NCBI GenBank assembly: GCA_032622095.1
Contig: CP136061.1
Location: forward strand, 136,423,587-136,487,586
Length of the DNA stretch: 64,000 nt
DNA from: Siphonodentalium dalli
Taxonomy: Eukaryota > Mollusca > Scaphopoda > Gadilida > Siphonodentaliidae
Reading direction: 5' to 3'
Of this stretch, positions 30,478-59,660 are shown piece after piece. The notes beneath the pieces were generated by a model. The model was given only the letters and a program-made list of their open reading frames with translations. It made no database searches and was not told where the DNA came from. The number at the start of each line of letters is the position of its first letter. Within the stretch, counting starts at the first letter, position 1. Both the position numbers and the translations under genes were made by a program.

Positions 30478-30711
30478 ATATTCCCGTCAAAGATACGTTA
30501 CACACTGAACTACATGTTATATTCATTTTTATTCACAAAGAGAGGATCTATGAGATCCGTTTAAAATTTATTATTTTGGTACGAAATAGCTTAAGTACCT
30601 TTTTGAATCATTATTATGACGTAGCAAGTCACAGGTCACGTGTCCACTAGCTGTATAATGGACATCCACAGGTAAGTTCTCTTTTCATCTTTGTGCGACA
30701 AGATTGAGGGA
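30478..30711 (+). repeat. DIRS-like B, left ITR
   Basis: From CACACTGAACTACATGTTAT inward it matches, in reverse complement, 47346-47560 (for example TTCACAAAGAGAGGATCTAT and GGTACGAAATAGCTTAAGTA). The outermost 23 bp are not shared with the right ITR but are shared, inverted, with the ICR at 39420-39455. Confidence 0.85.
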
Positions 30712-31231
30712 AGTAAAACGCTATGAGGCAATGAACCACACATTACTGTCGGGTTCATTTTTTAGTTTAACCTAATCCGTTCCATATTTTTAACTTGTTG
30801 TGACTTCGTTTCAATTTGAGAAACGACACAATACTTGTTAAATTAATATCAGAGTGACAATTTCATACTTGAATTTATTTGTCTTATGTAAATAAAATTA
30901 AAAAATATCTTTGTTCTGTTAAGAATTGTGGGAAATTTCCCAACTTCCGGTTACGACGCACGTGGTTTACAATTACGAATTGAATTCGTCTTTTCCGTTT
31001 CGTGTGTCGAACTCTCTTCTGGAACAATGTTTACACAGTCCACTTGCTATGTTATCTCTGTTCATTTGGTTTTAGAATGTAAGTATTATTTCGAACCTTC
31101 GATCAGTGAGACAACAGTGGATTTGTGGCTTTGTTTACGTTGAAATTGTCATGTGACAACATTGGTTTTGTTTACATTGAAATTGTCACTCACAAATATG
31201 TTTCATGTTGACAAATGTAGCGAATGCGTAG

Positions 31232-31384
31232 GGAGCAAATTAACTGGCATCGCATCGCAATTTGCTGCCCACATTTGTATGGATTATAGCTATGTAATTT
31301 GTCATGACTTTGCTATGAGTTTAGCACAATGATATCTAATTAACTTATTTGCTAATCCAAATTTTAACAGTGATTTGCTCCCTG
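31232..31384. mobile_element. Small MITE with GGGAGCAAATTA ends
   Basis: GGGAGCAAATTAACTGGCAT at the left and TTTGCTCCCT at the right. The left end is nearly identical to that of 31917-32422 in the same direction. It is noncoding. Confidence 0.5.
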
Positions 31385-31916
31385 CAAAATTAGGGATCAG
31401 GTTTGGGTCCATTTTCGTTTATCTATGAATTAACTCACTTTGTGTGGTTTTGCTTGGTTCATAGTTCACTATGAATTAGTTTACTATACACACTGAGGTT
31501 GTTTGCCAACAAAATAACTTGGTGTCCAGTGATCAGATCGCTCTGACACAAGTCATAACGTGACTCATCAGTCACCTAATTTCATGGTAAATTTTGAGGT
31601 CCCTTTCCTGATCCTTATCAATGGTCAAAAACGGGCTATTTTTCTTCCTCGTGTGGCCTCGGCTTCAGTAACCCCATTGTCCAGCAGGCTCAGGCTAATC
31701 CAATTATCCTCGTTCCATGCTGACCTTGAGGTGGCCCAGCCGCATACTTCACCAATGTCACTGTAGGCAAAAGGTGCCATACTGTTCCGAGGGTAAGTTC
31801 CAGTGTTCACGGATCCAACCATGCTTGACTGCTCCTGCTGGATCCTACCTCAGATTTTCGTCCTCCCACATCCCTTTCACTAGCATGTGCGATGAACCAA
31901 GATCTGTCGGCCCCCC

Positions 31917-32422
31917 AGGGAGCAAATTAACTGGTATCGCATCACAATTTGCCATCCAAATTTGGATAATAGCCATGCAATTTGGTATGAATTTGATGTG
32001 ATTTGAGATTGAGAACAATGCTCCAGTCCTTCCCACGAGGAAAACGCAGCGAGAGCATTTATTTGCTCCCGTAATTCAGAAGACGGGTGTAATATTGCAC
32101 CCATACTTTTTCTCAAACAAAAAGGCATTGTGGAATTGACCTGTGTCTAGTTACACTTTAATATGCCATAGGTGAACTGAGCTGGTAAGGGATCTAATTA
32201 AACCTTCAAATAGTTCACTGTTGACCCAACAATTATAGTCTCCATTAGTATTTAATGAGATGAGGGTCGGGTGCAAATTTTAGCACCCGTGATTTGAAAA
32301 TTACGAGTGTGTACGGGTGCGCGAGCAATCACTCCCGTCTCCTGGGAAGGACTGTTGCTATCTAATCATGTCAATGAGAGGCTATTTGATAATCAAAATT
32401 TCCAAAGTAATTTGCTCCCTGG
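31917..32422. mobile_element. MITE with CAGGGAGCAAATTA inverted ends
   Basis: The left end is CAGGGAGCAAATTAACTGGT and the right end is AAAGTAATTTGCTCCCTG. An internal inverted pair CTCCAGTCCTTCCC(A)CGAGG / CTCCTGGGAAGGACTG surrounds 32030-32360. No convincing target duplication. It lies inside element B. Confidence 0.55.
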
Positions 32423-33423
32423 AGTCCACCCTCGGGTGGAATTGCTGATAAGACCACTTCCCGGGACTCTGCATGGCCTTAAGATGCTTGATATTAGGCG
32501 GAAGGCAAATTATCGCAAGTGTAGCGGCTGGGGCTGTAGCGATTCATCGTAAATTTCATTGGAGTGATACTTGTATAGCGATACACGAGTCAAGTAATAT
32601 CTGCATATCTATGGGCTAATGTAAACCAACGTTTCGGTTTATTCTATGTAAACTATTTGACTGATCTGCCCCATAACCATGTAATTCAATGCAGATAGTG
32701 TTCATTTAGAAACACTAGTGGAGTGTATCGTTATCTGTATCGTTTCATTGGTCGGTTATCTGGATTTGTATCGTGTCATGACCAAGAAAAAACCCATTGG
32801 TTGGGTATGATGATCTGACATTTAGTTACAATTCTAATTAACAGGGCTGATTGCCATCTGACGTGAATTACGTTTCTCACTTGGGATTTCGGAAAACGCT
32901 TGCTGCTACATGTATTTCTTGTGTCTGTATGGAAAAAAGAAATAGAGACAATTGCAGGGCATCGAGGGAAATCAGACGCAGTTTCTCTCCTCCGGTATGT
33001 GTCCTGGGGGGGGGTTCGAGGGGGAACCGAGCGTTGGGCCATCAGACAGCGCACCGTCTCATACCGGGTTTTCTCGGGTGCTGCACGTAACAGTTAACAT
33101 AGCGCAGTCATCGGCCTGGGCAGAGACATTGTTGTTTAAACCATGGAGTTACCAGGGCTCAAACTTATTACCTTTCACTTGTCCCTGATTGGCATTGTAC
33201 TTTGTTTATGGGTAACCAATCGATTCTTCTGAATGTAAATTCTCCTCTTTACACAGATCATCTTTCACCCTTACTAAAGGTTCCGTGTGGCGGAACTCCA
33301 AGCCTTGGAATCCTTCCAACAAATTTGCGAATTTCAATCTGGTTTTCTACAGCGATCAGCTGCTTTTCCGCAAACCAAGCTGCGAATCACATTTCTAATT
33401 GCGTAGAGCATTCATTCTTTCAA

Positions 33424-33627
33424 TCCAGTTTATTACCTCAGACCCGAGGACATTGTTTTAATTTACAAATACACCATTCATCGAAGGATGTCGGGAAGTA
33501 TTTCTTCACCAATCGCGTGGCAGAAATGTGGAATAAACTTCCAGAAACTATTGTGATCGCAGATACGCTGGAACAATTCAAAACTCTAATCGACTATCAC
33601 TTTTACAGCGAAAAATTTCACGTATGA
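33424..33627 (+). pseudogene. C-terminal fragment of a second non-LTR retrotransposon polyprotein
   Basis: The frame contains LPQTRGH, KYFFTNRVAEMWNKLP and TLEQFKTLIDYHF before a stop at 33625. This is the familiar C-terminal block of many Jockey/CR1-clade reverse-transcriptase proteins (TRGH ... F..R....WN.LP ... F...LD). The LINE just downstream ends quite differently (CKNNGCPDCAL), so the fragment belongs to another lineage. Upstream sequence to 33202 stays open but has no RT motifs. Confidence 0.6.
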
Positions 33628-33839
33628 CAGGTAGCTGCATGCACGTCCATGTGACGAACACAAATAATTTTTCAAGTTCTTGTATCAGCATTAGTGGAAC
33701 TAAAGTGAGTGAGGTTGGGAATACACATGATTTCGCGGCAAAATGGTCTCAAATAGAAGGAGATGAATTCGATCCCGATAGCATCCAACTTTGGAACCAA
33801 AATACAAGCCAATATTTCTCGCCTACACAGGGTAAAAAA

Positions 33840-34131
33840 GTGTTCTCAAATAATATAAAATTTTCTATCTTCGGCCTAAACTGCAGAAGCCTTAACGCAA
33901 ATTATGGAGATCTAAAACAAATTACTTTGTGATTTGAAAACAGAAGAATTCAAATCTCGACCAGACGGCGACGTATATATATAAAGGAGAATCTTCAATA
34001 TAAACCCAGACCTGATTTAACAATATTTATACCACACGTAATAGAAACATTATTTATAGAAATACACCGAGGGGCGAACGATAATTATATAATAGGATGT
34101 ATTTATAGACCAAACACAACCAAAGGCCGAT
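33840..34131 (+). pseudogene. LINE endonuclease domain, deleted and frameshifted
   Basis: KFSIFGLNCRSLNANYGDL (33861-33917) is the usual start of an APE-type endonuclease. It stops at 33930-33932. Without the middle of the domain, text of the C-terminal half follows in another frame: KENLQYKPRPDLTIF and YIIGCIYRPNTTK (34086-34124). A further frame change near 34111-34131 leads into the RT frame. The catalytic core residues between these blocks are missing, so this copy cannot make a working endonuclease. Confidence 0.7.
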
Positions 34132-36684
34132 TTGGACAAATTTTTGTTAAAATTCGATAATATATTAGAACAAGTGAACAATACCAAGTCTTACATAATA
34201 GGAGACCTCAACATCGACCTCTTAAATTTCGAGACACATAAAGAAACTAACGATTTCATAAACAATGTACTCAGTAGAGGATTCGTGCCCATGATAACAA
34301 AACCGACAAGAATTACTGAACACTCTGTTACCCTAATTGATCACATTTATACCAACAAAGTACAAGGTGGCCACCAAACAGGGATAATTACCTGCGACAT
34401 CTCCGATCATTTCGGCATATTCCTCTCCGAATCAAACAAACACAAACCCATAAAACCCTCTCATAAAAAAGTCACGTATAGGAACTACAACCCAAATAAT
34501 GTCAATATTTTCAAAAACTTGTTGAAATCTTGTAAATTCGACTCAGTTCTCAATTGTAACTCCCCCGATAAGGCATATGAATTGTTTTTAGACATATATA
34601 TGAACGCGCATGATCTAGCTTTTCCACTAATAACACGAAATGTACCAAAAAAATATATAAAGCGCGAACCATGGATGACATCTGGACTAATAAAATCCTC
34701 TATTACTAAGCAAGAATTATACTCTAATAAACTGAAGGCACCTTCAGAAAAAAATAAAATCGCCTATTTAAATTATCGTCAACTATATAACAAACTAATA
34801 AGGAAATGTAAAAATAATTATTATTGCGATAGTCTAGAAAAAAATAAGAATGATATAAAAAACACATGGAAAATTCTTAAAAACGCCATTAATAAAACTA
34901 AAAAATCATGTAACTACCCACAGACATTTAAAGATAACGATACCGAGCTATCTGACCCGAACATAATAGCCGAAAAATTCAATGACTACTTTTCAAATAT
35001 CGGTCGAAACACCAACGACTCAATACACACTGGAAATGATGAAAATTTCACTGATTACCTTGGAAATAGGCGAACAAAGGAATTCGAAATTGAACCAACA
35101 ACGATACAGGAAATAATATTGACATGTTATACTATGAAAGGGAAAATGAGCAAAGATCACAACGGAATATCGACCGCACTTATGAAAGAGAGTATCTTCA
35201 TAATAGCCCCACCACTTAAGCATATATTTAATCTATCGTTTGAAGAGGGAATATTCCCAAGGAAAATGAAAATTTCCAAAGTAGTCCCCATTCCTAAAAT
35301 AAATAACTCTAAGGAAATAACAAACTATCGCCCAATCAGTATCCTGCCATCGTTATCTAAACTGCTTGAAAAAATTATGCAAAAACGACTAGTATATTTT
35401 CTAAATAAACAAGAAATCTTGTATAAACACCAATATGGATTCAGACCAAATCACTCAACATTTCATCCGATAATGCACCTTCTAGATCATGTCGTTAAAA
35501 ATAATGATACGCCGTCACGGGATTCCACCTTAGCTGTATTTATTGATTTATCTAAAGCATTCGATACGATCGACCACAACATACTTATATCGAAACTTGA
35601 CCACTATGGAATCAGGGGTGTAGCAATGTCATTGTTCCATAGTTATTTGAATGAGAGGAGGCAATACGTCGAATATAGTGGAAGTACCTCTAGCCTAATG
35701 AATACCTCCTGTGGGGTACCCCAAGGCTCAATTCTTGGGCCGATTATTTTTTTAATATACGTGAATGATATGGTAAATTCTACAACAATGGACATTTTAT
35801 CATATGCCGATGACACCACACTGTTCACAAGCGGTAAAGATGGCGAACTAGTACAAAGTTACGTCAACAATGAATTAGCCAATGTATCCGATTGGTGCTG
35901 CTGCAATAAACTTTCAATTAATATTAATAAAAGCAATTATATGCTTTTACACCCACAAAACAATGACAAAAAATGGAATACTTTGAAATTAAAGCTAAAT
36001 AACATTGAATTGAACCGAATAGGAAATCTTGGGCGTGAATCCTCGACAAAATTCTTAGGTATCCACATTGATGAGAACTTGACATTCAAAAAGCACATAT
36101 CCGTAATCTGCTCCAAAATATCACATGCAATCTACTGCATCAATAAGGTGAAAAACTTTTTCCCAAGTAAAACATTGAAAACATTGTACTATGCTCTGAT
36201 TCAAAGCCACTTAGTTTATGGTATCCAAATATGGGGTCATGTTCCGGAAGTCAAGAAAATATTCCTATTACAAAAACGAGCATTGCGTATAATATTCAAT
36301 AAGAAGTACAGGAGTCACACAGATCCACTCTTTAAAAGAGAGAATATCTTTAAAATATATGACTTACACACCCTCAATTCCTCAATTTTCATGCATGACT
36401 GGTGTTATAACCGTCTGCCTGCGTCTTTTGGAATGATGTACAACAAACGAGCAAAATCAACCCAAAGACACCCGAATCCCGTACTGTTGGAACTTCCTAG
36501 AACTGACTGGTCAGGAAACCTACCCCACCACGCCTTCCCCACAACATGGAACAATATGGAAAAAGTCTATACTTCTTGCCAAAGCAGGCACACATTGAAG
36601 AAGCGCTTACAGATAGCCATGCTGAGAAATTACCCAGAAAATGTACGCTGTAAAAACAATGGATGTCCCGATTGTGCTCTATAA
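34132..36684 (+). CDS. LINE reverse transcriptase frame, 850 codons open
   Basis: The open frame extends from the tail of the endonuclease (IIGDLNIDLLNFE, residues about 22-34) through the reverse transcriptase to a Cys-containing C-terminus. RT motifs in order: YRPISILPSLSKLLEK (about residue 400), QYGFRPNHST, FIDLSKAFDTIDH with the catalytic Asp at residue 472, CGVPQGSILGPIIFLIYVND, and the active-site YADD at residues 558-561. Then come FLGIHID and the thumb-like SHLVYGIQIWG block, and it ends CKNNGCPDCAL. An 850-codon frame free of stops suggests fairly recent activity, although the endonuclease is broken. The first codon (TTG) is only the edge of the open frame; the true product would start upstream. 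It is probably L2/CR1-like; the exact clade is not determined. Confidence 0.9.
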   Translation: MDKFLLKFDNILEQVNNTKSYIIGDLNIDLLNFETHKETNDFINNVLSRGFVPMITKPTRITEHSVTLIDHIYTNKVQGGHQTGIITCDISDHFGIFLSESNKHKPIKPSHKKVTYRNYNPNNVNIFKNLLKSCKFDSVLNCNSPDKAYELFLDIYMNAHDLAFPLITRNVPKKYIKREPWMTSGLIKSSITKQELYSNKLKAPSEKNKIAYLNYRQLYNKLIRKCKNNYYCDSLEKNKNDIKNTWKILKNAINKTKKSCNYPQTFKDNDTELSDPNIIAEKFNDYFSNIGRNTNDSIHTGNDENFTDYLGNRRTKEFEIEPTTIQEIILTCYTMKGKMSKDHNGISTALMKESIFIIAPPLKHIFNLSFEEGIFPRKMKISKVVPIPKINNSKEITNYRPISILPSLSKLLEKIMQKRLVYFLNKQEILYKHQYGFRPNHSTFHPIMHLLDHVVKNNDTPSRDSTLAVFIDLSKAFDTIDHNILISKLDHYGIRGVAMSLFHSYLNERRQYVEYSGSTSSLMNTSCGVPQGSILGPIIFLIYVNDMVNSTTMDILSYADDTTLFTSGKDGELVQSYVNNELANVSDWCCCNKLSININKSNYMLLHPQNNDKKWNTLKLKLNNIELNRIGNLGRESSTKFLGIHIDENLTFKKHISVICSKISHAIYCINKVKNFFPSKTLKTLYYALIQSHLVYGIQIWGHVPEVKKIFLLQKRALRIIFNKKYRSHTDPLFKRENIFKIYDLHTLNSSIFMHDWCYNRLPASFGMMYNKRAKSTQRHPNPVLLELPRTDWSGNLPHHAFPTTWNNMEKVYTSCQSRHTLKKRLQIAMLRNYPENVRCKNNGCPDCAL

Positions 36685-37862
36685 TACAACGAACATTAAT
36701 AGTCATACGCGATACATAATCCTAACTCTACTCGAATAATGTTCTTCACAACGTACCCGCAAGTGGACACACATCGCATTCTCGTTCCTAGCATGCCCAT
36801 ACACTACCATACATGATACATCATAGATGCCACCGTATATTATTATGATTACTCTAACGTGGCTCTGACCCTATACCGCTAGACATACATAGAACATTAC
36901 ATATATGTAATATTGTTAATCTGAATTATCCCAGAACCTCACTCAACAAAGAGACTTCCCGGCGATCTTATATAGATCCTCATTGTGTTTACCGAACAAA
37001 AAATGGTGGTATCTCTCGCCTGAATCCGTTGTAGCAACACAAAACTAACTGTTTTGTTCCTAATAAACCCATGGAACTGGAACTGGAACGGAAACTGTCA
37101 TATGTTTAGAAAACCTGAACAGTTCAAAACATTCATATGGAGAGATAATACATTTTCGATCTTATAACTCGTCTGGATTGACTCACAACCACACCAATAC
37201 TTGTTTTTGTTATGCCCTAAGTACTGGATTCTACAACGTTTTATATATGATTATAGTCTGTACGTGTGCGTGGATATGGATACAAGCATCTATTCTATTA
37301 TTTATACTGATACCTGTTTTAGGGGGTAGCAGGAAGACAGCCCGATAGGGCTAGGCTACCCCCGACAATATACTGCTTTACCTTATTATGTATTTCTGCC
37401 ATTGTATAAATATGTATATTGTAAATAAATTATCCTATCCTATCCTAAGGTCGGATGACCTGTTCCGAGATTAAATGATTGGATTAACATTTGGCTCTTC
37501 AGCAGGGCTCAAAATATATTTAATTTTGGGAGAATCAAATGCTGAATCAAGTCAGTCATAAAGCACTGAAAATTGAAATGTTTTGTGAGAATCATTACGA
37601 GAATCGATTCTGTGATTCTTGTCGAATCTTAAGGCCTGCTCCAGCCTTAGAAAATTCCCAATGATTGTTCACCTGTAGTACCAGGCTTAGATCTATTCTC
37701 TGACGATATAGTGGCTTTTATAGTTGGGTTAGCTTATTGGGTTCAGATATAGACCATTGACATCATGCAATCTTCTGAGGTGGCTGGTAAGAAATAAATA
37801 ACTTGTTCCATGGGAACAGGCGCATTTCAGAATTTTGAGCCCTGCGTCATGCCAACGACATA

Positions 37863-37928
37863 CCGTGATGCCCTGAATGATTGAGTCCTTCGCCGCCGGG
37901 GGGTTGTGGGTCATTTAGGGCATTGCTG
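37863..37928. mobile_element. Very short TA-flanked MITE (66 bp)
   Basis: TA at 37861-37862 and 37929-37930. Ends CCGTGATGCCCTGAATGATT and CATTTAGGGCATTGCTG are a diverged version of the CAGTAATGCCCTAAAT terminus of the palindrome family. The GC-rich centre GCCGCCGGGGGG is unrelated. Confidence 0.6.
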
Positions 37929-39419
37929 TACTCAGTGCTCCTTTTTGACACGCTGTCTTGAATAACTCAAACAGGCGGGCACTCCGTTTAACGGCGCACA
38001 TGAGGCAATCACCGTTGGTGACAGATGAGTCTCTGCCCACGGGGAGGAACTAGGGTCCGGGTCCTCGCTGTATGATCGACAGACAACCGTCAGACCATAC
38101 GCACATGTGACTGGTCTTCCGTAACATGACTCCTCTCGACCAACTGTCGAACGAGAATATGCCTTCACCTTAGTGGCTACGGTGGGCTGGAAACACGAAC
38201 AGCTCATGGACCCGGGCCCTTCGTCTGTTGAGAACAATCAGTGAATAACAAGAAGACACATTCTTCTTGTTATCAACATTCTGGTTGTTTTTAGACCTTC
38301 ATCCTCCACAGCCTGTTCATCCTTTCCGACCGTTTGAAGTTGTTCCATCTCGATGGGCTTCCTCCTTCCAAACGTTTTCTAATATATTACATTCAGGCCT
38401 CCAAGTGTCCCTTTCCATCAAGGTAACTGAATACACTTGATTGGATCGACAGGCTGTAGAGGCAGTTTACAACTCGGGACTCTCCGGACTTTGTTTCTTC
38501 TCGATTGTTTCGATACCAGAAAACATTTTAGGAATTTCAAAATCCTATCACGCTAGTGTTGAATTTTGTTTACCAGGGTTTTTTTTCCAACCAGTTTCAC
38601 GGCTCATAGTAAATGCTGGTCATGTCATTGTCCGATGGAGATGGAGATGGTTTATCTCCGGTGTATTTCTTACTCGAAGTAAAGTTTTGGCACTTTTGTA
38701 AACAATAACATGGGTTTTCCTGGGTAGCAACTGGGCGCTCACTACACTGTGAAGCCTCATTGACTACTAATACGTCGATTGGACATTTAACTACTGTCAT
38801 TTTGACAGTCAGTTACAAAATAATTATTTTGAGCCTTGACCGTTTGTTAACAAAATTGGATTTGCACCTTTACTGACAGTATGTCGCAAAACTCACAATC
38901 ATGGTTATGCGGCTATTGAAATCTGGGTTTTCTTTGCCTGAAATGAGGTTTGGTATGTTTCTAATCGTATTTACATTCACCTCTTCCTCATTTTACATCC
39001 AGATTGTCTATTCAGGTAGCAATAGATTTCCTTCCTCTGGTGTCGAAACGTCGGGATATCTTGGTTCGTTCAGTCACAAGCATGGATCACAGTGGTCTAT
39101 GCTTTCTGCATATGACCAGCTTGCTCCATGGAGGAGGCGGCACCTGCATGTACATGCATATGACCTTTGGGCGATTTCTACCTAATGAGTTTTCAAAATT
39201 ACTGGTTTGCCTGACTTCAGGAATAAAGGGGGGGGCCAAGATTTAGCCGTGGGCTCATTCATCTACTTTCTCCTCTTTACCGTGTATCATAAATCAAATC
39301 TGCGAATCGGTACCTTTTGGATTCATTTGTTGCTACTCAGCAGGTTCAAAAGAATTGCTCTTAACCAAAATACAATAGTATCTCATTCCTCGCAGCCTCC
39401 TCCTATGAGTTGATTCTAA

Positions 39420-39478
39420 CATGTAGTTCAGTGTGTAACGTATCTTTGACGGGAATATAACATTTTCAATAGAAAATA
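39420..39478 (+). repeat. DIRS-like B, internal complementary region, left half
   Basis: CATGTAGTTCAGTGTGTAAC to GACGGGAATAT is the exact inverse of B's left end (30478-30516). The following AACATTTTCAATAGAAAATA is the inverse of B's right tip (47588-47607). The region is then cut at CATATT by element C and resumes at 47264. It is preceded by GCCTCCTCCT (39395) and ATTCTAA (39413). Confidence 0.85.
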
Positions 39479-40334
39479 CATATTTCCGCTAAAGGAAGCC
39501 GTTCACACTGAACTATATGGATATATGTCCTGCATTTGTAAACCATAGTAGAAAAGGGGTTAACTTTTTGTGGTCGCCTACGATCCCTCACTGTCTTCAG
39601 TGGCTTGCTCGGAATCAGTCACGCATGCACAGTCCCAATATAACCGATTGAATCTCGTCAGTTTATATTCTGCTACGAACCGAACGGAAGTCTAAAGGGA
39701 GTATTGTTCCGAATTTGTAGTTTAACAACTAGACAACAAATTCAATTTATCGATACAATAATTACTGGTCGCCTACGCGTTAGTTTTTAGAATTATTGTT
39801 TCTAATTCACGGACCATTTCGCTTCAAACATACAATTAATCCGGGTTTTCGAACAGGCGGCGGACTTAAAATTTTTCGAATATGAAAATTGACATTTCAC
39901 CATAATCAGCCGCCATTTCAAGGCCTTACGAAGCGCATAGATTATTGTGAGCAATTCATCTATGTAATTATTATAGAACCTATAAGGTATGATATAATTT
40001 GTCAGATATAAAAAATGCCACGTGATTCGCTACCGGAAGTCTCCTAATTTTGTGGGAATTTATTTACGCGTGGACATTTATTTAGCAATAATTACCATCG
40101 CTACTGACGCTATCTATCATAATGTTATGAACAATATTCTTTCTCATAATACTTTGTTGTTTTATGGTTCAATACAACTGATCCAGATGTGTTGGTCACA
40201 TTTGAACTTAAAGTTGATTACATCTTGGTTTATCAATGTAAAAACAGATACCTAAGAATAACAGTAGTGTCATTATTACTTTAATAAATTGACAGAGATT
40301 GATATTGGACAAGTGTTATAATTCTGTTCATGGT

Positions 40335-40490
40335 TTGTTTCTCGTAACGGAGCATCACCTTCAATGTAACAATCTCAGCCATGTGCTAGCGGACCGGGGA
40401 TCGCACCCTGGTCAGGGTATTCTGACAGAAATCAGAACTCGGTCCGATACCAAGTTTGTCAGGCTAACAAGTCCCATTCGAGATTACTGA
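40335..40490 (-). repeat. Possible tRNA-derived SINE
   Basis: On the minus strand, TTAGCCTGACAAACTTGG resembles a tRNA A box and GGGTGCGATCCCCGG a B box, at about the normal spacing. The A-box part matches the candidate at 53430-53660 (TTAGCGTGTCAGACTTGG). There is no complete tRNA fold, so it is not called a tRNA gene. Confidence 0.4.
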
Positions 40491-40646
40491 ATAAAATCCG
40501 AATGCAAATGCCGACTTTCCCCATTACAACACTTGTTCAGGTATGTTGTCGTGGGTGCACTACGCTGTGCAATCGGGTGTGGACAATTAAAACTTAATGG
40601 CTGACCCATGTACACACCTAGGTGTGTGCATGTTACAGAACACTAC

Positions 40647-43428
40647 TAGACCATGGGATGAAAATCCTAGGACGCTTAGAAAAAAGTTTGTCTGCAACTT
40701 TTAGGGTACTACAAGAACTTTATATTTTCATAGCAAGATTGTTTTCTTGTAACAGATTGTAAAATGTTCTGGTTTCGGGAGTTGCACATTCGCGAGAAAA
40801 ACATGTTTTTGTTAGCCGTTTTCGTGTACATTCTCACTAAAATATTAATTTTTTTTCTGTTTATTATTACAAGTTAATTGAGACAATTTGGTGATTATTC
40901 TAAATGGAATATGACGAAATCTTTCAATAAACACGAAAAGCACAAACAGAACGGCATATTTACGCCCAGAATGACATTTTGAATATTAAATTCCCCCGAA
41001 TGGCGCCTGACGTTCGATGAAATAGAGTTACTGTTCTTGACATTACATGCATTCCACCGGCGAATAGTGTTATTCCTCTGGGCGTCACGTGTATTTAACG
41101 GAATATCTACGCTGAAATTGCATCGAATTGAGGGTCAGTAAATGTTTTGGTATAAATATGAAATTAATAAAAACAAAATTATGTGTGGATATACAATTTT
41201 AACTAACATTGGGGTGCATTATTTTGCTCATAAAATAATAATGGCCAATAGGCCCTATATATAGTACCGGGTACGTGTTCTCAAAATCCGCGGCCTTGAC
41301 TTCGATCATATATACAGTTTAACTGAACAAATGGTATAGTTTTACAATTTTGATGGCGCAAAACTTTCTCGGGACACATTTTGTCGCCATGCATATAGCC
41401 TTATAGACCCAGACAATCATACTATTCAAGTTTATTTAAAATTATAAGGTGAAAAGTGCATGTGCAGATGTTCCGTTGAGAACTTGAGTGCTACATGTAT
41501 TCGTGTCCGATATCGTGACCACCGTGCGCTCGCCACAGGACATGGTCGTATATTTAGTAGATTTTAGCTACATGTGTAGACTTATCTCAAACGCCGAATA
41601 CATGCACATACAGGTTATATGCATGGGCTTGTCGGAATGATTAATGCCCGTCATAATTGTCACTGAAAAATCATGCGATATGTCCAACATTGTTCACGAA
41701 ATAATAAAAAAAACAAGCATATATATAACAAGATATATAAATGCATCGATATGGACGTCACTATAAAGTGTGTTTATTTAGTTCACCTTAGAATTACATA
41801 CTAATACATCTCCCTTGACCTCGAGATATCAAACATTCCCAAACTCTTTAAAACTTAATAATTTTGTATATCTTTATTTCCATTTAAAACAAAACAACTT
41901 TCAAACTGATTGGTCAATATTCGAATCTATTTTCTGGCTGAAATGTCAAATCACTTCTGTTGGTTCGGGTATGCATGGAATGTCCAACGTTGAACATTTT
42001 GACCAAAGTTAGGACTACCCGGTCGCCACGCTCATGTATGCAGTACCTCAACTTGTTTTAAAATTTCGCCAGGTAATACCCCGCCATTATAATTCGCGAC
42101 TTGCATTTATGATCCAATAAACAGTCAAATACAAATATCGTATACTTTGTTTTATATGAAGTCATTCCATGAAGAGTTATATTATTATAGCATGTTTTGA
42201 AATAACTTTTCATGCGCGGTATATATATCATCATCATGATGTAGTCAGCCATGTGTAACTGCTATATGTCGGTATAGTGGACAAGATATTACATGTGCAT
42301 AAACTTGCACGAACTGTTCAGTATATAAATAACTTAGTAAAAATAAATAAACAAAAATAAAAAACATGGAATTTCCAGAATTGTTGTTATCTGCACGCCA
42401 AAAGATAAAGATTATTTGACTCGGACACATGCCCTCCAAGAGTTGTACTGAACTAGAACCTATCATTTTCGTCTCCGTAAAAACGGTACATAACAGCATG
42501 TGCATGGACATATTCCTTAAACTTTTCACGCCTGCATAATTCACATCGTGGACTGCATTGTGTATACGCATATTTAAACACCTCGCATATTTAAGGGGAA
42601 AATTGCAAGTAGAGATCTACAAAACTAGTTAGTTGAAAATTATCACATGAACGAATTAATAGCTTAAGTTCATATGATATTTGATTTTAAAAGATAATTA
42701 ACGGAAAACATAACGAAAAATACGAACCCATCATCATCATGCTTGAAAAGTTCAACTTATATATAGGCCTATATATATATAGACTTATGCACACCAGACA
42801 CTAAATGAAATGGTCGGCTGGCACTCTGTATCTGGTAAATATTCGGAAAGATATTATGGATTAATATAATGTCTGCCCTATCTCTGAAAAACAGTGCCAT
42901 TGTCGGTGGAATAGAATAAAGAGAAAGTGCCGCGTGAAGTAAAAATAGTTTCTCGTTAAGACCTGGCGTAATACTAATTTTCCGGACAATCGCGCGCTTG
43001 GTTTTGCTTCCGATTCCAGAAATTCAATTAATCGGAATGGCACGTGTAATTGATGTAATTTTTGTTGTGACTTTAATCTGTTTCTTGATTTGAAACTAGA
43101 TCGGGTTTATGTATTGTATAACTTCCTGGTAAAGTGTTGATTGTTTTTGGAGGAATCCATTTAAAATTAATGCATATTTATCGACCTTTGATATTATTGA
43201 CAGAATGCGTATAAATAACGGAATATCACGACGGAACGAACCTCGTGCACCGGCGGTATATTTTTCAGATAAACTTTTGCTCTTTATTCGAAAATGTGCA
43301 ACTCCCGAGGCCAGAACATTTGCGAAAATATGTTTATTGACACGTAACCTTCCAACATTTACCAAAATTATGTAGTACCTCAAAAGTTGCAGAGCAATGA
43401 CAGCTTAGGATTTTCATCCCATGGTCTA
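40647..43428. mobile_element. Long-terminal-inverted-repeat element, 2.8 kb
   Basis: TAGACCATGGGATGAAAATC opens it and the inverse closes it at 43428. The match continues inward, imperfectly, for about 180 bp (CTGCAACTTTT.GG.TACTAC and AATGTTCTGG...CGGGAGTTGCACATT are paired with 43290-43390). The interior is AT-rich without a recognisable transposase. Long TIRs suggest a Mutator-like or fold-back type, which is tentative. It lies inside DIRS-like element C. Confidence 0.6.
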
Positions 43429-45471
43429 TACTGGAGTCACTAGAACTCATCAAAACAACATGCTTTCACAAAATACTTTGTGTTTTCTGTTTCAATACTG
43501 TCACACATGTCTCCTATGATTTAGATGTGTTTGTCGACGCTTGAAGTTGACTACAGTTTATCAATATCAGGAAAATAACGACTGTCGTGGTACTAAGATT
43601 CGTTAGTGTCATTAATTTCAGACAGGGATTGACATCTGACAGGAGTCAGAATTCTGTTGAGTACATGATTCGATTCTCATACAGTGCTTCAACTTCACTG
43701 TCAAATTTTGAACTGCTAGCATTTAGTGATTGCAAGCATGACGCTAAAATTAGTTATTATTCTGAATTGTATCCAAAATTAACCCATCCTTTCAAAATTG
43801 CTGGGTTGTTTCTCGACTAAATGGTGTCTCCTTCCGGAATACAAACATAATTGCTTTTCTTCCTGTGCAGGTTTACCGAAAAGAAGCGGTGGGGGCTGGG
43901 TTACTACGATTCTGGATATGGCTCTAATTGGGACACAAAATACAAATCATGGGTGCTCCGGTTTGCATTCTCTACAGTAAGACAAGAAGCTTATCGTCAC
44001 TCTGACGGTGTTTAATCATGGTTTCACTATCTACAAATATATTTGAAGATACTTTGGTTTAAAAAAAACCTTTCCCCTTCTTGATTCAATTATGAGAATG
44101 ATTCCAGCCTGACAGGTATTTAGAATCGTGGTGACTTGACCCCTCCAGTTAACTGGCCCACTGTCAATAACTGGCGACCGTGGCCTGGATGACGTTCCCC
44201 AATGAATAACGATATAATAGCAGTGGTATTCCAAGACGAGGAAGGTGGGGGGAGACATTATTTATGGCAAGTAACCATATCAAATGTGAGCTTGGTACAA
44301 GAACAGGCTGTACATCCAATACAGCATGCATTGTTCATAAAGGGCATGGTAGGTGTTTTGAGGGTATTCATGGACTAGCTGGAGTCTCAATGAATTTTCA
44401 AATATATATGTGTCCCGACCTTTCATACAGTTGATATGGCGAATAGACTTCACACACGAATAAAGCATATTTACATGGAAAGCATTTATATTGTCACGTG
44501 TCCCACGACCACTGCCAATAGCCTTTCCGACAAGAGTCCATCCGCATGGCTCTTCATACTTCTATTGCCCATATCAATTTGATTATCTGGCACATAGACA
44601 ATAAAACAGGCAAAGACGTTTGCGCTGTCCAGCTAAGCTTTCGAGGAAGCTCATTGACCAGCATTACCGACCTTTCCTAAGACGCAGGCAGGGGACCACC
44701 CCGTACGAGTGGATCCCATCCCCATGGCACCAGATGCCCGATCGTAAGGGCCTGAATCCATGCTGCCAACTCTGCGCATTTCGGTCTATGCTGGATTTGT
44801 CCTCTCTTCCTTAAACATGCCTTAAGCAGGACCACTTAGGTCGGGGGAGTTCCTCTCTATCTTGGCTCTTCAAATTAAAATAAAACAACATTATAAAAGT
44901 GATGTGTATCCTTTACTAGGAGGATGATAATTTCAATCGTTTCCTTCCTAGGGGAGCCATTTTTAGAGCGGGTCTTCCCCTAGTTTGCTGCATGCTTCAC
45001 ACTAACCGACCTATCACACATCTAGGTCGTTCTGCTGCATGTTTGTGGGGGCAGAGGCTCAGACCTGAATATTCCGTATGGTGACCGTGAAAATTTACCT
45101 GTGTTTATCATCTGACTACATTGTACATCATTTGAACTGATTTCGGTTGTAGAAGGCGCACCTTCATTTCTTAGAATCGGATCGTGGTGGGTATTCCGCT
45201 GGGAACGTGGACTGCTCTCAGGTGCCTAGTGGTCGTGATGGCCTAATAATAGTAATGTGTGTGGATTTAGGCTGAACATAATACTTGTGATTGCACATTT
45301 TGCTGTCTATCTCCATTCCAAAGGATGGTGATTGTTGGGAAATTTCTCCAAAATTAATAATCATACCGATATTATTATTTGGCACCTGAGAGTAGCGGTT
45401 TGCTTTCTCATTGGATGCTCTGGTCACCTGCGGTGTTCGGCCATGCGCTCCCGATGCTCATGGCTGTTAGT

Positions 45472-45957
45472 CATGTTCTCTGAGGGGCTATATATATATC
45501 TTTAATGATACATTTGATTGTGCCAGGGATCTCTGCTCTGGCTCCGACCATTGGATTGTTGGGCGCAGCTTTGGTAGGGTCTTATGACATGATCTCATGA
45601 TGACTTATATATCACCATGATATATCTATTATATCATTTTATATATCTATATATGCGAAAGATTTGTATCACCTGGTTTCTGCAATGATATCTTGTGGTA
45701 CATAGGTACCTCAGAGACATGCGACATGTTCTCTGTGGGGTTATATATCTATATTTAGTGATACGTTGGATCATGACAGGGAGCTGTGATCTGGCTCCGA
45801 CCATTGGATTGATGGGCGCAGCTTTGGTAGGGCCTGACATGGTCTCATGAGGAAAACTTAATATATATATCCACAGGATATATATATTATATCATTTTAT
45901 ATATATATATACGCAATGTGTATATTGTGATACATAGGTACCTCAGAGACATGTGAA
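45472..45957 (+). repeat. Direct tandem duplication, about 250-bp units
   Basis: CATGTTCTCTG.GGGGCTATAT, CTCTGGCTCCGACCATTGGA, TGGGCGCAGCTTTGGTAGGG, TATATCATTTTATATAT and ATAGGTACCTCAGAGACATG each occur twice in the same order, starting at about 45473 and 45727. The units differ mainly in the length of TATA runs. It lies inside element C; function unknown. Confidence 0.8.
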
Positions 45958-46506
45958 CGTGTGATAACTGTTCTAAGGGCAGGACCAGTTCACGCTCCTC
46001 CGGTTACGTCTCGACGGTTCAACCAATTCGTGGGGATACGTCTGGTGGAGCTGTCGGGGTACTTGGGACCTCCAGGCCATTTGGCCCCCACCAGACGCTA
46101 TCGGTTCTGGGCGCTAAAGCTGCCAAAATCGCGTGCGCACGTATCGACACCCGGCTGGATGGCCTTCGGCAGCTTAAGCGTAGGGCAGGGGCCGTACCCA
46201 TGAGGTAAAGTGCCGAGTCCCCCTGGTCACGCTCGTCTTAACGACACGGCCTTGCCTGCCACTCCTCCGTGAAGGGATCGGAGAAAAATGACCTCTCCCC
46301 ACCCTCCAGCTTGGCCAGGATATTAGCTTGGGCATGACCACCTGCAGCATGCGATGGTGGGGGCTCCCTCTGATCTGATGGCTTGACTCGCTTATAGTTG
46401 TCTAACCCTTTTGGGCTAATGGGCTCTCCATTTGATCCCTGTGCCACAGATTGGGCATCAGGTTATCTGCCATTTCCATTGGTGAACAGCAGTTAGTTAA
46501 CTCTTA

Positions 46507-46749
46507 ATGTGGGTTGTCTTGCCATCTTTGGAGTGGGCCTCCTCCAGTGTAGGTCGTTATGTCGCTAAGGCGGAGAGGGAGTTAGTCTCCTCGCATCTCA
46601 AATCGGCTGGATTCTTAGAACTGACGGATGAAGAACAGAGAATTGCTCGGTTCGCTCGCAATTCTGAATTGAATGGCACCACCTGGGATGTTGCTTCCAA
46701 AAACAAGGGGGGGAGGTACATGTTTGAGCAATATAGCACTCTAATTATA
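46507..46749 (+). pseudogene. Unidentified coding-looking remnant in DIRS-like C
   Basis: 81 codons open, with EWASSSVGRYVAKAEREL and DEEQRIARFARNSELNGTTW. The composition is like a soluble helical protein rather than random AT-rich translation. A second patch at 46012-46201 reads GAKAAKIACARIDTRLDGL and then LRQLKRRAGAVPMR in another frame. Position, 150-900 bp before the ICR, suits decayed DIRS coding sequence, but I cannot match it to gag, RT, RNase H or recombinase, so this is inference. Confidence 0.3.
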
Positions 46750-46891
46750 TGAGTTATTTCACGTAACTAATCATAACAGATTCATTAAAGAGTTCATATT
46801 TTGGTACAATCTGTTTTAGAAGAGTGCATTCCCTCCAAAATTTGGCTATTAACTTTATTGCTTGTGCCTCCTCCTGGGCTTGCATTCTAAT

Positions 46892-46988
46892 CCATATAGT
46901 TCAGTGTGAACGGCTTCCTTTAGCGGAAATATGATATTTTTAAAAATATAATATATATTTCCTTAAAGAAAGCCTGAACACTGAACTA
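46892..46988 (+). repeat. DIRS-like C, internal complementary region
   Basis: TAGTTCAGTGTGAACGGCTT to GCGGAAATATG is the inverse of C's left end (39479 on). ATATTTTTAAAAATATAATA to CCTGAACACTGAACTA is the inverse of C's right end (47209-47263). Together they spell the circle junction with one or two mismatches. It is preceded by GCCTCCTCCT (46866) and ATTCTAA (46884) and followed by GGGCCCTCCCA. Confidence 0.85.
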
Positions 46989-47345
46989 TCATAGGGCCCT
47001 CCCATGGCGGTGCCATTCCCAACCCCGCAACTCGCCAATCTCCTGATTGAGTTGAAAATAAACTGACGAGATTCAATCGGTTATATTGGGACTGCGCATG
47101 CGTGACTGATTCCGAGCAAGCCACTGAAGACCGTGAGGGATCGTAGGCGACCACAAAAAGTTAACCCCTTTTCTACTATGGTTTACAAACGAAGGACATA
47201 TATCCATATAGTTCAGTGTTCAGGCTTTCTTTAAGGAAATATATATTATATTTTTTAAAATATCATATTCCCTAATAAGATACTTACACACGGAACTCAC
47301 ATGGCCCTCCCAAATTGGGATTTCCCCTCCCCGCTGCTTGGTCAC

Positions 47346-47607
47346 ACCCCTCGAATCTTGCAAGAGGATGAAAAGAGAACTTACCTGTGGATGTCCACTG
47401 CCTTATATACAGCTAGTGGACACTTGACCTGTGACTTGCTACGTCATAATAATGATTCAAAAAGGTACTTAAGCTATTTCGTACCAAAATAATAAATTTT
47501 AAACGGATCTCATAGATCCTCTCTTTGTGAATAAAAATGAATATAACATGTAGTTCAGTGTGTAAGTGTATCTTATTAGGGAATATGTATTTTCTATTGA
47601 AAATGTT
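47346..47607 (+). repeat. DIRS-like B, right ITR and outer extension
   Basis: It is the inverse of 30501-30711 up to GTAGTTCAGTG, then the specific outer extension TGTAAGTGTATCTTATTAGG to TTGAAAATGTT. CATATTCCCTAATAAGATAC of the split ICR (47264-47283) is the inverse of part of this extension. 47297-47345 between ICR and ITR carries the GGCCCTCCCA...CCCCGC block common to A, B and C. Confidence 0.85.
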
Positions 47608-48793
47608 ATTGTCGTGGGATGGCATCCATCGTACATCCATCTATGGAGGGGGTGGGCTGTCCGCCGAGACGTCCATCCATCAACAATTTTGTTTAGCACA
47701 CCCTACAGGTCGCATCTCTCATCCGATCATCACCAAACTTTAAATGGATCTTCGGGGTGACATCTAGATGGGAGTCATCAAATTTTTCCGAACTTCTTTG
47801 AAAAACATGGCCACCAGCTGCCATCTTCAGATTTGAATCCGCAGCCCGCAGTTATCTGAGATTTGTTTTGAAAATTTACAGGCATGTTTATAATTACCTC
47901 TATTGGGAACGTCCATACATTTTCACCAAAGTTACAGCCTTGTTGTACTTCTAATTATATTGAATGTTCTGTCTGTAGAGACATTTCGCATTGTAGCTCC
48001 AGTAACAATGGTCAGACTTAAATGTTATTTGGACTGCTAACAGACCAGGATTGATGGAATGATGCTGACAGGTTTTGTTCATATCTTTGTGTCAGAGTTT
48101 TTGCCATATTTGGAAATAGCAAGATTCTTCATATTTGCTTCACATTTAGCATTGTTACTTATATAACTACCAACTGTTGGATTTGAACATCTTTGACTTT
48201 ACCATGTCACTAAACCGGAAGTATTTTCTCATTCCATGCTAGTAACCATGGTGCACCATTTTAAATCTACCCCATCACAATTTGATTGTGGTATTTCAGG
48301 AATAATTCTTTAGTATATGACTATTGCAGGCAATATGCATCTTAAGCGAACCGATGACCATTGAAATAAGGAAGTTTAGTGAAGAGAACCCAGAATATGC
48401 TTTAAAATACACCCATGTCTCATTTGAGTAGTTTCCCCCCCCCCCCCTTCCCACAATGAAATCAAGATGTCTTGTTAGTTACAACCAGTATATTTCGCTT
48501 TGCAAATGGTTAATACTGACCTTTGTCTATCATGACGCAATCTTTCTTTGTCTGAAAATGTAGACACAAACAATCGGAAACTATGGCAAGTGATTCGCAG
48601 ATACAACACCAGTAGAAATCGTCCCCTAAATCATGTATCCGTCAGAACAGCCATCTGGAACATAAGTAACAAATAACCTAAGGATTTTTCCCCAATGACC
48701 CATCAGGATTCCCAGTGCTAAATAACTGTACCATCCATAACCTGGAGATTGCAATCCACAATAAGTAAACAAAGCTACTGTGCCTGTCATTTG

Positions 48794-55736: not shown

Positions 55737-58021
55737 GTACAAAGTTAGATGTGTGTAACTGTTTAGTGCATGATGATGGGGATGATTATTCTGGTGACAG
55801 TAATTAGGAAATTTGAATCATGTTGGCAGAATGCTATGTAGAGTCTGTCACTGAGCTAACTTGTATAACGAATGATGTAACCAACCAAATTGTCATTGGT
55901 ATATTGAAGACAGAATTTAGGCAACAATAATTGAAAATAAATGAAACAAATACTAACTTAACTTTCCAGAGGACAACAATCTTTTGGTTAAGAAAAATAT
56001 ATGACGCCAATGGCAAATACATTGTTGTACGTTTGTAAACAATCTCGGGTTGAAGTTTTTTTTGAGTAATCATAATTTTTATCAGTTTCTCTGGTGTTTA
56101 TTCTTCCATTATTGACAAAATGCCTGGTGGAAACTGTATTTCTATATGGCTCTCCATATATTGAATTGGATATGGTGAGAAACGCTTATTTCCGATAATA
56201 TGGAAAGGGCGCATGCTCAAGAATTTGTTTTCTGTATGACAAGTTGATGTGTTTTTTTATGTGTACCCACACAATAGTATGGTACACATAGTGTCGACGT
56301 CCGGACTGACCACTCGTCGTTTGTCCGTCTGTCTTTCTGTGTGCCTGTCCGTCCATAGACACTTTACGCATAAAGCGATAACTCAAACATATCTCCTTCA
56401 AATATATCTTGGACACTGAAACTAATGGTTATATATTCTTGCTTGCAAGAAATCTGAAGTCGTATAAAAAAAAAAAATTGGTACACAATACCACGAGTAC
56501 GCGCACTTGTCAAATGCCAATTAATGGCGATATATTCTTTGGACCAATCATGGGAGTCCTTTCACTATAACAGTGATGGAAAGACAAGACCTCATTCATT
56601 TTAAATTCTTCTAGACGCAAGATAAGTCGCATTTTTTATCTGTTCATTTCTCATGAACGTTTCTCTTTATGCTATTGCGAACGACAACACGCAGTTGCCT
56701 AATTTCGTGCACTACGCACGTGTTTTCCAATTTTTCGCAATTTAGTTTTACAATTGTTCAACAATATTTTATTCTACAATACTGTCTTATTGACAGTAGT
56801 CCGTGGGTGGATATTTTCATTAACAAATATTTCAATTTTGTTTTATTTACGAGAATCACTTCGAACAAATATCGTTTTTGTTTGCATAAAACAATACTCA
56901 ATAAAACAAATTGATGCTCTTTCGAGTCTTTCGGGTTTTCGTCGGGATTTTTTAACACTGCACCGGATGCAATATCGTGTTGTCGTCTCCACTAAGCTCC
57001 AGTTTGGAGTTTGGTCGCTGACAAAATCCTATCCAAATGTATTAGAAGTAATAATTTACAATATTTTACATTACAATATTTTACAATAATTTTCCTCACG
57101 GATGCTAGATAAAATAGCCACAGTGTGGCTTGCCTCTTCTCTCTACATTGAACATACGTCTCAATGCTTTACGATGAAAACTTCGTAATGTTTTTTCCCT
57201 CCGACTGGTAGGGGTGCCACGATTGATCGTATAATCGATGAAATGTTGATACAGCCGATATTCAATTACCACTTTCGGCGGCGATTACTCTGCATTCTTT
57301 ATTTCGGATGTCGAAAAGTACCGGCCATATTTGGATACCCTGTTTTACAGTTTAATATCCAACGGACAGGTTAACGATCGTTGATCGTACAAAGATATTT
57401 GTAACGCATTGTGCTCATTACTAATTACCGGCTTTCCTTCCCACGAGCCAGTAACGATTCTAATCTGATTTAGCGATTACCGATTCTCACCGTTGCGACA
57501 TTTCACAATTATTGCCGCATGCCCATCGGTGCTTGAGCATATCAGTTGGCGGGTTATCACAGTTTTTGTAACTTTCTGCTAACCTACGGTATGGGTTCCC
57601 TATACCACCACCTGACGAACGATATTAAACTAAGTTCCACATTTATTTTAAAACCATGCAGGCCGGTTCTTTGCATCACAGATTGGCCGTATGATTAGAC
57701 TATGTTCCATTCGCGGTATTAGTTCCTCTCCTTGGTTGCCCGTACACTTCAATTTCCAGTTCCTTGGCTTGGTGTACCAGAGGCAGGCAATCTTTCCATC
57801 TTGGTCCCCTCCCTTATGTGTATGTTTTTTCTTTCTTTCCCGGGTCATGATTTCCAGTGCTCAACTCAGTCATGTTTTCCTGGTGTATCCCTGGTCCCCC
57901 TCATTGGTCTGGGCCCGACGGTTTCTCATATCTCCCCTGGGTCTCTCGGTCGGGCTCAAAATACTGTCAAGTCGGTCATACCGCACTGAGCATTGCCTCA
58001 TTTTGTGAGATCCATTCTGAG

Positions 58022-58062
58022 TATTGATTCAGCTTTTTCTGGCGGGGGGGGGGGGGGGGTGG
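58022..58062. repeat. Poly-G tract
   Basis: A run of 14 G (58044-58057), then T and GGGGG, inside element A. A poly-C counterpart occurs at 48437-48449 and another at 53220-53237. These are simple-sequence tracts and likely spots of assembly error. Confidence 0.7.
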
Positions 58063-58507
58063 GGGTGTCATAACCGTGTTTTCCCCTCGGTGCACCTTTT
58101 GCATGTATTGTGGGCCAGTCAGCATCCTCTGGATGTCGTGCTAGTGCTGCTTCATCCTCTAAGGAGGGGGGGTGGGGTAGGTTCCTTTATCCTATTAGGT
58201 ACATGAATGAATGAGTTATCCCCCTTGCCTATGACCAATGGTTATCCTGGACACCTTCACCCTGTGATCATTACTAGTAGGACACATGAAGTACTTGGCG
58301 TTTCCTTTTAGGAGGCTCAGTTGTTTTTGAGTTTATCTGTAATATCTGAACTATAACATATGGAACACAATTATCTATTTTTTGGCACATGTCTACCAAG
58401 AAATCTTTTTGGTACAGGATGCAGGTCTTTTCTGCTTCAGCAGGTGGGTTTCATGGACATAGTCGGATTATCTACCTCGTGGCCTCCTCCTCTTCAAGAA
58501 TTCTAAT

Positions 58508-58607
58508 TATAACCATTAGTTTCAGTGTCCAAGATATATTTGAAGGAGATATAATATTTTTTTACCCAAAATATGTATCTCCTATAATAATTATCTTGGA
58601 CACTGAA
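58508..58607 (+). repeat. DIRS-like A, internal complementary region
   Basis: TATAACCATTAGTTTCAGTG to ATTTGAAGGAGAT is the inverse of the left end (56391-56435). ATAATATTTTTTTACCCAAA to TTATCTTGGACACTGAA is the inverse of the right end (58887-58938). It is preceded by GCCTCCTCCT (58482) and ATTCTAA (58500) and followed by GGGCCCTCCCA and CCCGCCCCGC, as in elements B and C. Confidence 0.88.
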
Positions 58608-58938
58608 CATAGAGGGCCCTCCCAGTTGGGATCAACATTCCCGCCCCGCGCACTCGGTCAAACGCATCAAACACACAGGAGGAAGAAATTAAAATGAATG
58701 AGGTCTTGTCTTTCCATCGCTGTTATAGTGAAAGGACTCCCATGATTGGTCCAAAGAATATATCGCGATTAATTGGCATTTGACAAGTGCGCGTACTCGA
58801 GGTATTGCGTACCAATTTTTTTTTTTTTTTACGACTTCTAGATTTCTTGCAAGCAAGAATATATAACCATATATAACCAGTTTCAGTGTCCAAGATAATT
58901 ATTATAGGAGATACATATTTTGGGTAAACAAATATTAT

Positions 58939-59660
58939 TTTCTATCCGATCGGAACCAAATTTTGTATACAGATCGAGTTCAAATATGGATTTTGTATAC
59001 AGATCGAGTTCAAATATGGGTTTCATCCGACTTTTGTTTACAGAGTTATGGCCCTTTTTCGACTTAGAATTCACGCATTCTGCCATAACTCAAACATTTT
59101 TTATCTGATTGGAAAAAAATTTGGTATGTGAGTTTCTCAACCCCAAATACTTATAGAGTTCGATTATGGGTTTGATCCGATTTATTTTAAAGGAGTTATG
59201 ACCCTTTTTCAAAAATAAAATTATTTTATTTTTAAATCCGATGCTATAACCGAAGTATTTTTGTCGATTGTGTTCATATTTGATATGTAGGTTTATGATG
59301 ACACACCCCTTAACTGTATAGTTTTTGGTATTGATTGGTTGATCGGTTTAGAAAATAATTAGTCTTCACACACATGCTATCCAATGCAATAAGTTGAACA
59401 TATTTCTTCTGATCTGCCTCATATTTCTTACATAGGTTTTTCTTAGCATGGTCTTCATCTGTATGGTTCTTGGTACAGTTTAATTAACCCTTTTCACTCT
59501 TATGTTTACTTAGAATTCACCCAAGCTGCTATGACTGATCAAACTTGGTATATGAATTTCTCACCCCTAAATACAGATCGAGTTCGAATATGGGTTTGAT
59601 CCGATATATTTTAACAGAGTTATTGTCCTTTATAATTCAAGTAAAAATTAATACCTGTTT
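58939..59660. repeat. Dispersed repeat hosting DIRS-like A, degenerate tandem units
   Basis: TTTGTATACAGATCGAGTTC occurs twice 29 bp apart (58963-59019). Units with CCCTTTTTCGACTTAGAATT, CATAACTCAAACATTTT and TATCTGATTGGAAAAAAATT recur to about 59650. The left part of the same repeat is at 56270-56390, before element A. It is noncoding. Confidence 0.65.

Follow-up and report, generated by a model that had tools for sequence, protein, structure and literature searches.

Locus and question

Do the internal complementary regions (ICRs) of DIRS-like elements serve as landing sites for other elements of this class? The question is raised by a locus of the scaphopod Siphonodentalium dalli (genome assembly of 2.23 Gb in 9 contigs), where a 64,000-nucleotide stretch of contig CP136061.1, here called the window, contains one DIRS-like element (B) with a second (C) inside its ICR. 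The first-pass annotation had proposed that C, with inverted terminal repeats and an ICR of its own, sits precisely within the ICR of B, that the rejoined ICR is the inverse of B's tips, and that ICRs might therefore be landing sites for other DIRS elements.

Element C lies base-exactly within the ICR of element B

Element B extends from 30478 to 47609 of the window (Table 1). C is flanked by an AT dinucleotide on each side, with a left border that reads GAAAATAC-AT-ATTTCCGC and a right border that reads AAAATATC-AT-ATTCCCTAATAAG. When the B flanks were rejoined without C, an uninterrupted B-family ICR was obtained, which matched the intact copy L021 at 93/95 bases. In 32 of 35 B ICRs fetched from the genome, 77–79 of the first 80 bases were identical to the rejoined sequence, and the other three (L102, L106 and L108) showed small length differences. 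In agreement with the proposal, the first part of the rejoined ICR inverts the left tip of B and the second part (window 47257–47303) is the right repeat of B inverted, with a 90% match. C also has the anatomy ascribed to it, i.e. inverted repeats at 39464–39670 and 47054–47260 (207 nt, 89% identity) and its own ICR. With both borders exact to the base at the two AT dinucleotides, the nested structure is confirmed as genuine and precise.

Intact B-family ICRs are present elsewhere in the genome and the rejoined site agrees with them. A search with an exact 29-base arm from B's ICR found 43 copies, of which 42 are intact, the window copy alone being split. Thirty of the intact ICRs were read through (16 + 14), all without an insert, and 12 were assessed by overlapping halves; two further ICRs with an altered arm (L116 and L117) are likewise intact.

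Table 1. Features of the nested elements B and C (window coordinates)
Feature	Position	Strand	Basis
B left inverted terminal repeat (tip core AT 30478-30479)	30478..30657	+	inverted repeats, family matches
LINE-like insert within B, carrying RT ORF 34096-36684	33617..37509	+	missing in L122 and L123, two other B copies
First part of B's ICR, up to insertion point	39411..39479	+	inverse of B left tip
AT exchange point, left border of C	39480..39481	+	
C left inverted terminal repeat	39482..39670	+	inverted repeats; family matches
C's own ICR, inverse of C circle junction	46890..46989	+	inverted repeats; family matches
C right inverted terminal repeat	47054..47264	+	inverted repeats; family matches
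AT exchange point, right border of C	47265..47266	+	
Remainder of B's ICR	47267..47302	+	
B right inverted terminal repeat (tip core AT 47608-47609)	47406..47609	+	inverted repeats

B and C are DIRS-like by structure

Both elements have inverted terminal repeats and an ICR complementary to both tips. In 21 paired C flanks, read by eye, no target-site duplication was present and exchange had occurred at very short identity, with a shared AT remaining. This AT could represent a two-base duplication, although the AT in the ICR's copy of the junction speaks against that reading.

An 850-aa ORF (34132–36684) was considered as B's own reverse transcriptase (RT) and rejected, since the insert that carries it is absent from L122 and L123. 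Based on this absence, a Pfam match to RVT_1 (4.6e-36) and an endonuclease match below the cutoff (Exo_endo_phos_2, 0.0041), the insert looks like a LINE. Twenty frames of window B, window C and L119 were compared with Pfam. Apart from this RT and the endonuclease match below the cutoff that goes with it, only two matches were obtained, both chance matches below the cutoff, and the set of RT, RNase H, methyltransferase and tyrosine recombinase was not found. The longest stop-to-stop frames in two B copies were 149 aa (L122) and 153 aa (L123), and that in a C copy was 111 aa (L124). Neither a long ORF of their own nor a recombinase gene was found in the B and C copies examined, and autonomous members may occur. 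Because the copies examined have no DIRS coding domain, B and C are DIRS-like by structure only, and because they have no recombinase gene, the integration mechanism discussed below is derived from anatomy.

In a first look at the number of DIRS-type half-sites in the genome, there were 802 candidates for B and 1,894 for C. The C family gave 831 matches to a tip or ICR at ≤3 mismatches and 290 exact left tips. Window C is 7.8 kb long, with extra material at about 40358–43428 relative to L124. One of the exact left tips, L120, was considered as a third tandem C and rejected, as it has the context of C's own ICR with one changed base; the set of 290 therefore includes at least one ICR. A C subfamily with CCAAAGGAAGCCCTCAC in its junction (e.g. 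C1:17097713) gave 228 matches and has a core-to-arm spacing one base shorter. The window also holds element D (56389–58945), which is short and has inverted ends, an ICR and TTCAGTGT arms.

Insertions of B and C follow a short target rule

The target demand of both families was read from their flanks. Of 38 C right flanks fetched, 37 had a recognised tip (L096 was dropped as its tip was not found). These gave 35 distinct flanks, all with T at +2 and with T, A or G at +1. Some of the fetched flanks came from duplicated loci (L003 and L020; L016, L099 and L100), and AT is present in these right flanks by construction because the tip expression itself required it. Where AT was not required, it was present in the left flanks of 18 of the 21 paired C copies (CT in two, AG in one) and in 20/20 B right flanks, 19 of which had T at +2. 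The right flank of window B itself, AT-TGT, is an exception to the T at +2. The visible target demand is thus AT, then [T/A/G]-T, mostly followed by T or C.

At the insertion point, the ICR of B reads C-AT-ATT, which fits this rule. The insertion site of C is 21 bases from a ACACTGAA-type arm, compared with 22 for B's own crossover and 23 for the C junction, and the words TTCAGTGT and ACACTGAA are common to the junctions of B, C and D. From the base composition of the flanks, we estimate ∼5.9e7 AT-[T/A/G]-T-[T/C] sites on both strands of the genome. Visual comparison of L063, L126 and L119 suggests that one copy each of B and C entered another repeat at the same position, with a flank ending in GTCAT.

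Insertions in ICRs are rarely found

To find C left tips behind a TTCAGTGT arm, the genome was scanned in two parts, with letters chosen to omit C's own ICR; targets ending in TC were also omitted, except for the ATATC cases covered by the self-junction scan below. The window copy was the only match in the first part. The second part gave 27 matches, 26 with C's own arm and one at a D-like tip. In the latter (L101, C4:64269118), C lies about two bases beyond the right tip of the D-like element, as read by eye; the right end of this C copy was not found, since L121 had no match and the C match in L101 ends early. Nine of the 26 matches with C's arm could be told to be ICRs (eight lie in the stretch covered by the listed exact C left tips and are not among them, and one was read in L118), and further tandem pairs are possible among the other 17.

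A third scan, for self-junctions of C, gave three matches: two head-to-tail C–C pairs and one ICR of C's own. The pairs have perfect circle junctions (at 5297 in L118 and, on the reverse strand, at 2850 in L119), their units differ in internal deletions, and their outer right flanks read AT-TTT and AT-GTT. Two other candidates for tandem pairs, L137 and L138, were rejected because other DNA comes next in both. For left tips of B preceded by an arm, no matches were obtained with exact words that omit targets ending in T, B's own crossover site among them. The scan for C right tips gave 228 matches, all of the own-junction type among the 100 matches listed; window C is invisible to it because its arm reads ACACGGAA. 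As all scans use exact words, diverged copies and families without TTCAGTGT escape them.

In addition, sampled flanks (40 C left, 37 C right, 18 B left and 20 B right; L076 and L077 were not entered) were compared with B, C, D and E, and none lay in an ICR. One of the 40 C left flanks (L146) placed a C copy inside a D copy, away from D's ICR, and the match of the B flank L030 to C (50 bases, 80%) is not long enough for a judgement. When the first flank samples were searched loosely for a 7-letter arm, there were hits in 2/37 C right, 3/22 C left, 1/16 B left (without L061, L062 and L076, in which the tip was not found, and L077, a right end) and 0/20 B right flanks. These six matches were taken as incidental because none of the flanks concerned matched B, C, D or E.

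Together, these counts divide the original proposal. Recombination of the C circle junction with the ICR of B at a short identity fits both the borders and the target rule. ICRs as landing sites in general are not supported: one of 290 exact C left tips was found in a foreign ICR, one of 43 exact-arm B ICRs has been used, and among the sampled C flanks 0/40 on the left and 0/37 on the right lie in an ICR of the elements compared. DIRS tips and ICRs, taken together, may be modestly preferred, because two head-to-tail C–C junctions were found and 17 further matches are possible ones.

Ordinary integration is the probable origin of the nest

How, then, did C enter this ICR? We consider it probable that C integrated in the ordinary way, with little sequence demand, and that its arrival in an ICR was chance, to which the arms may have added a weak attraction. 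A double-stranded circle of C would have joined the genome by site-specific exchange at the two-base AT, through a tyrosine recombinase presumably supplied in trans and possibly with help from the arms. The ICR repeats B's circle junction in inverted form and so contains two target sites, 21 and 22 bases from the ACACTGAA-type arm; C took the one that is the mirror image of B's crossover site. That a very short target word was used in the ordinary way is favoured because ICR landings are seldom found; AT-[T/A/G]-T-[T/C] is common, and the sampled flanks lay nearly all outside the DIRS elements compared. Against this, the number of matches expected on DIRS half-sites among 290 insertions is ≤0.12 at ≤25,000 half-sites, versus up to four seen. 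This hints at more than chance, although the four include the window case, from which the question arose, and one case with a two-base offset. Alternatively, circles may truly dock, at low efficiency, at the tips and ICRs of DIRS-type elements regardless of family, and build nests and head-to-tail arrays in this way. The recombinase would then read the arms plus AT, and junction-like sites would be used more than bare AT sites. We regard this as unlikely, although several observations speak for it. Among the 290 C left tips, one is in the ICR of B, two are in C–C tandems and one is near a D-like tip; the arm words are shared by three families, and more tandem pairs could be held by the 17 remaining C-arm matches. 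If all AT-[T/A/G]-T-[T/C] sites are used equally, the Poisson probabilities of ≥3 and ≥4 such hits are 2.9e-4 and 8.8e-6 at 25,000 half-sites, and 0.014 and 0.0017 at 100,000. However, these figures hang on the number of half-sites, which is itself an assumption: at 200,000, 0.99 matches are expected and the probabilities rise to 0.078 and 0.018. Ten arbitrary 9.9-kb stretches (99,000 bases) contained eight bare TTCAGTGT words, and the ends of B, C, D and E had no matches there, a sample too small to bound DIRS density usefully. Moreover, as the question arose from the window case, three independent cases are left, among them the one with the two-base offset. As one of 40 sampled C left flanks already lies inside a D copy, the D-tip case may be unremarkable. 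The empty ICR counts in the flank samples, the lack of matches for B left tips and the loss of L137 and L138 as tandems also weigh against such docking. An excess of landings at DIRS-type sites over chance, more at tips than at ICRs, is suggestive if such sites are few.

Joined or multimeric circles formed before integration could have given rise to the C–C pairs, and perhaps to the nest too, since a dimeric circle would be expected to yield the same internal junction, and the junctions are perfect at both tandem loci. This origin is very improbable, as C is absent from every other exact-arm B ICR (42/42 intact) and the tandem units carry different internal deletions, though two RNAs could account for the latter. 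An assembly artefact has a hardly appreciable probability: the nest is known from the assembly alone, but both borders follow the exchange rule of the family to the base and the joined site equals an intact ICR except at two bases.

Relation to known DIRS elements

The nest resembles the behaviour of DIRS-1 of Dictyostelium, which, according to the portions of PMC5633606 and PMC5006619 that cite Cappello 1984, prefers existing DIRS-1 copies, an insertion thought to involve the recombinase acting on circles. In both cases, a DIRS element integrates into a resident DIRS copy. For DIRS-1, the target is the same family, without apparent sequence preference in the part of PMC5633606 that treats it, whereas C entered the ICR of another family at a defined base, and such cases are seldom found. 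For DIRS1-like elements, PMC3266345 describes an integration in which the 3-bp junction has an identical counterpart in the target and no duplication arises. B and C are similar to the elements described there in their inverted terminal repeats, an ICR that matches the tips, the absence of target duplication and very short identity. They differ in that element and target share AT, while T at +2 is an extra demand on the target, and in that the frames scanned contain no DIRS coding domain. The accessible parts of PMC4157794 and PMC6387122 treat the classification of DIRS elements and their hot spots on chromosomes, but no insertion into an ICR.

The first-pass annotation knew of no description of ICRs as landing sites. 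DIRS-1 self-targeting is already in print; no description of insertion into an ICR was found in the available text of these sources, which is not proof of absence. The nest thus adds a case to known DIRS self-targeting with an unusually exact position: a natural integration, exact to the base, into an ICR whose other known copies are uninterrupted. With ∼290 exactly readable left ends of the C family in one genome, the target rule can be taken straight from the sequence for a DIRS-like element, and docking can be tested by census; if true, docking could explain the growth of DIRS clusters.

Several B or C ends share near-identical flanks at different places (L061/L062, L063/L064, L016/L099/L100 and L003/L020), pointing to tandem or inverted segmental duplications. 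Two B right ends (L034 and L040, C2:77683713-77689821) point in opposite directions and have almost identical outer flanks, resembling an inverted duplication.
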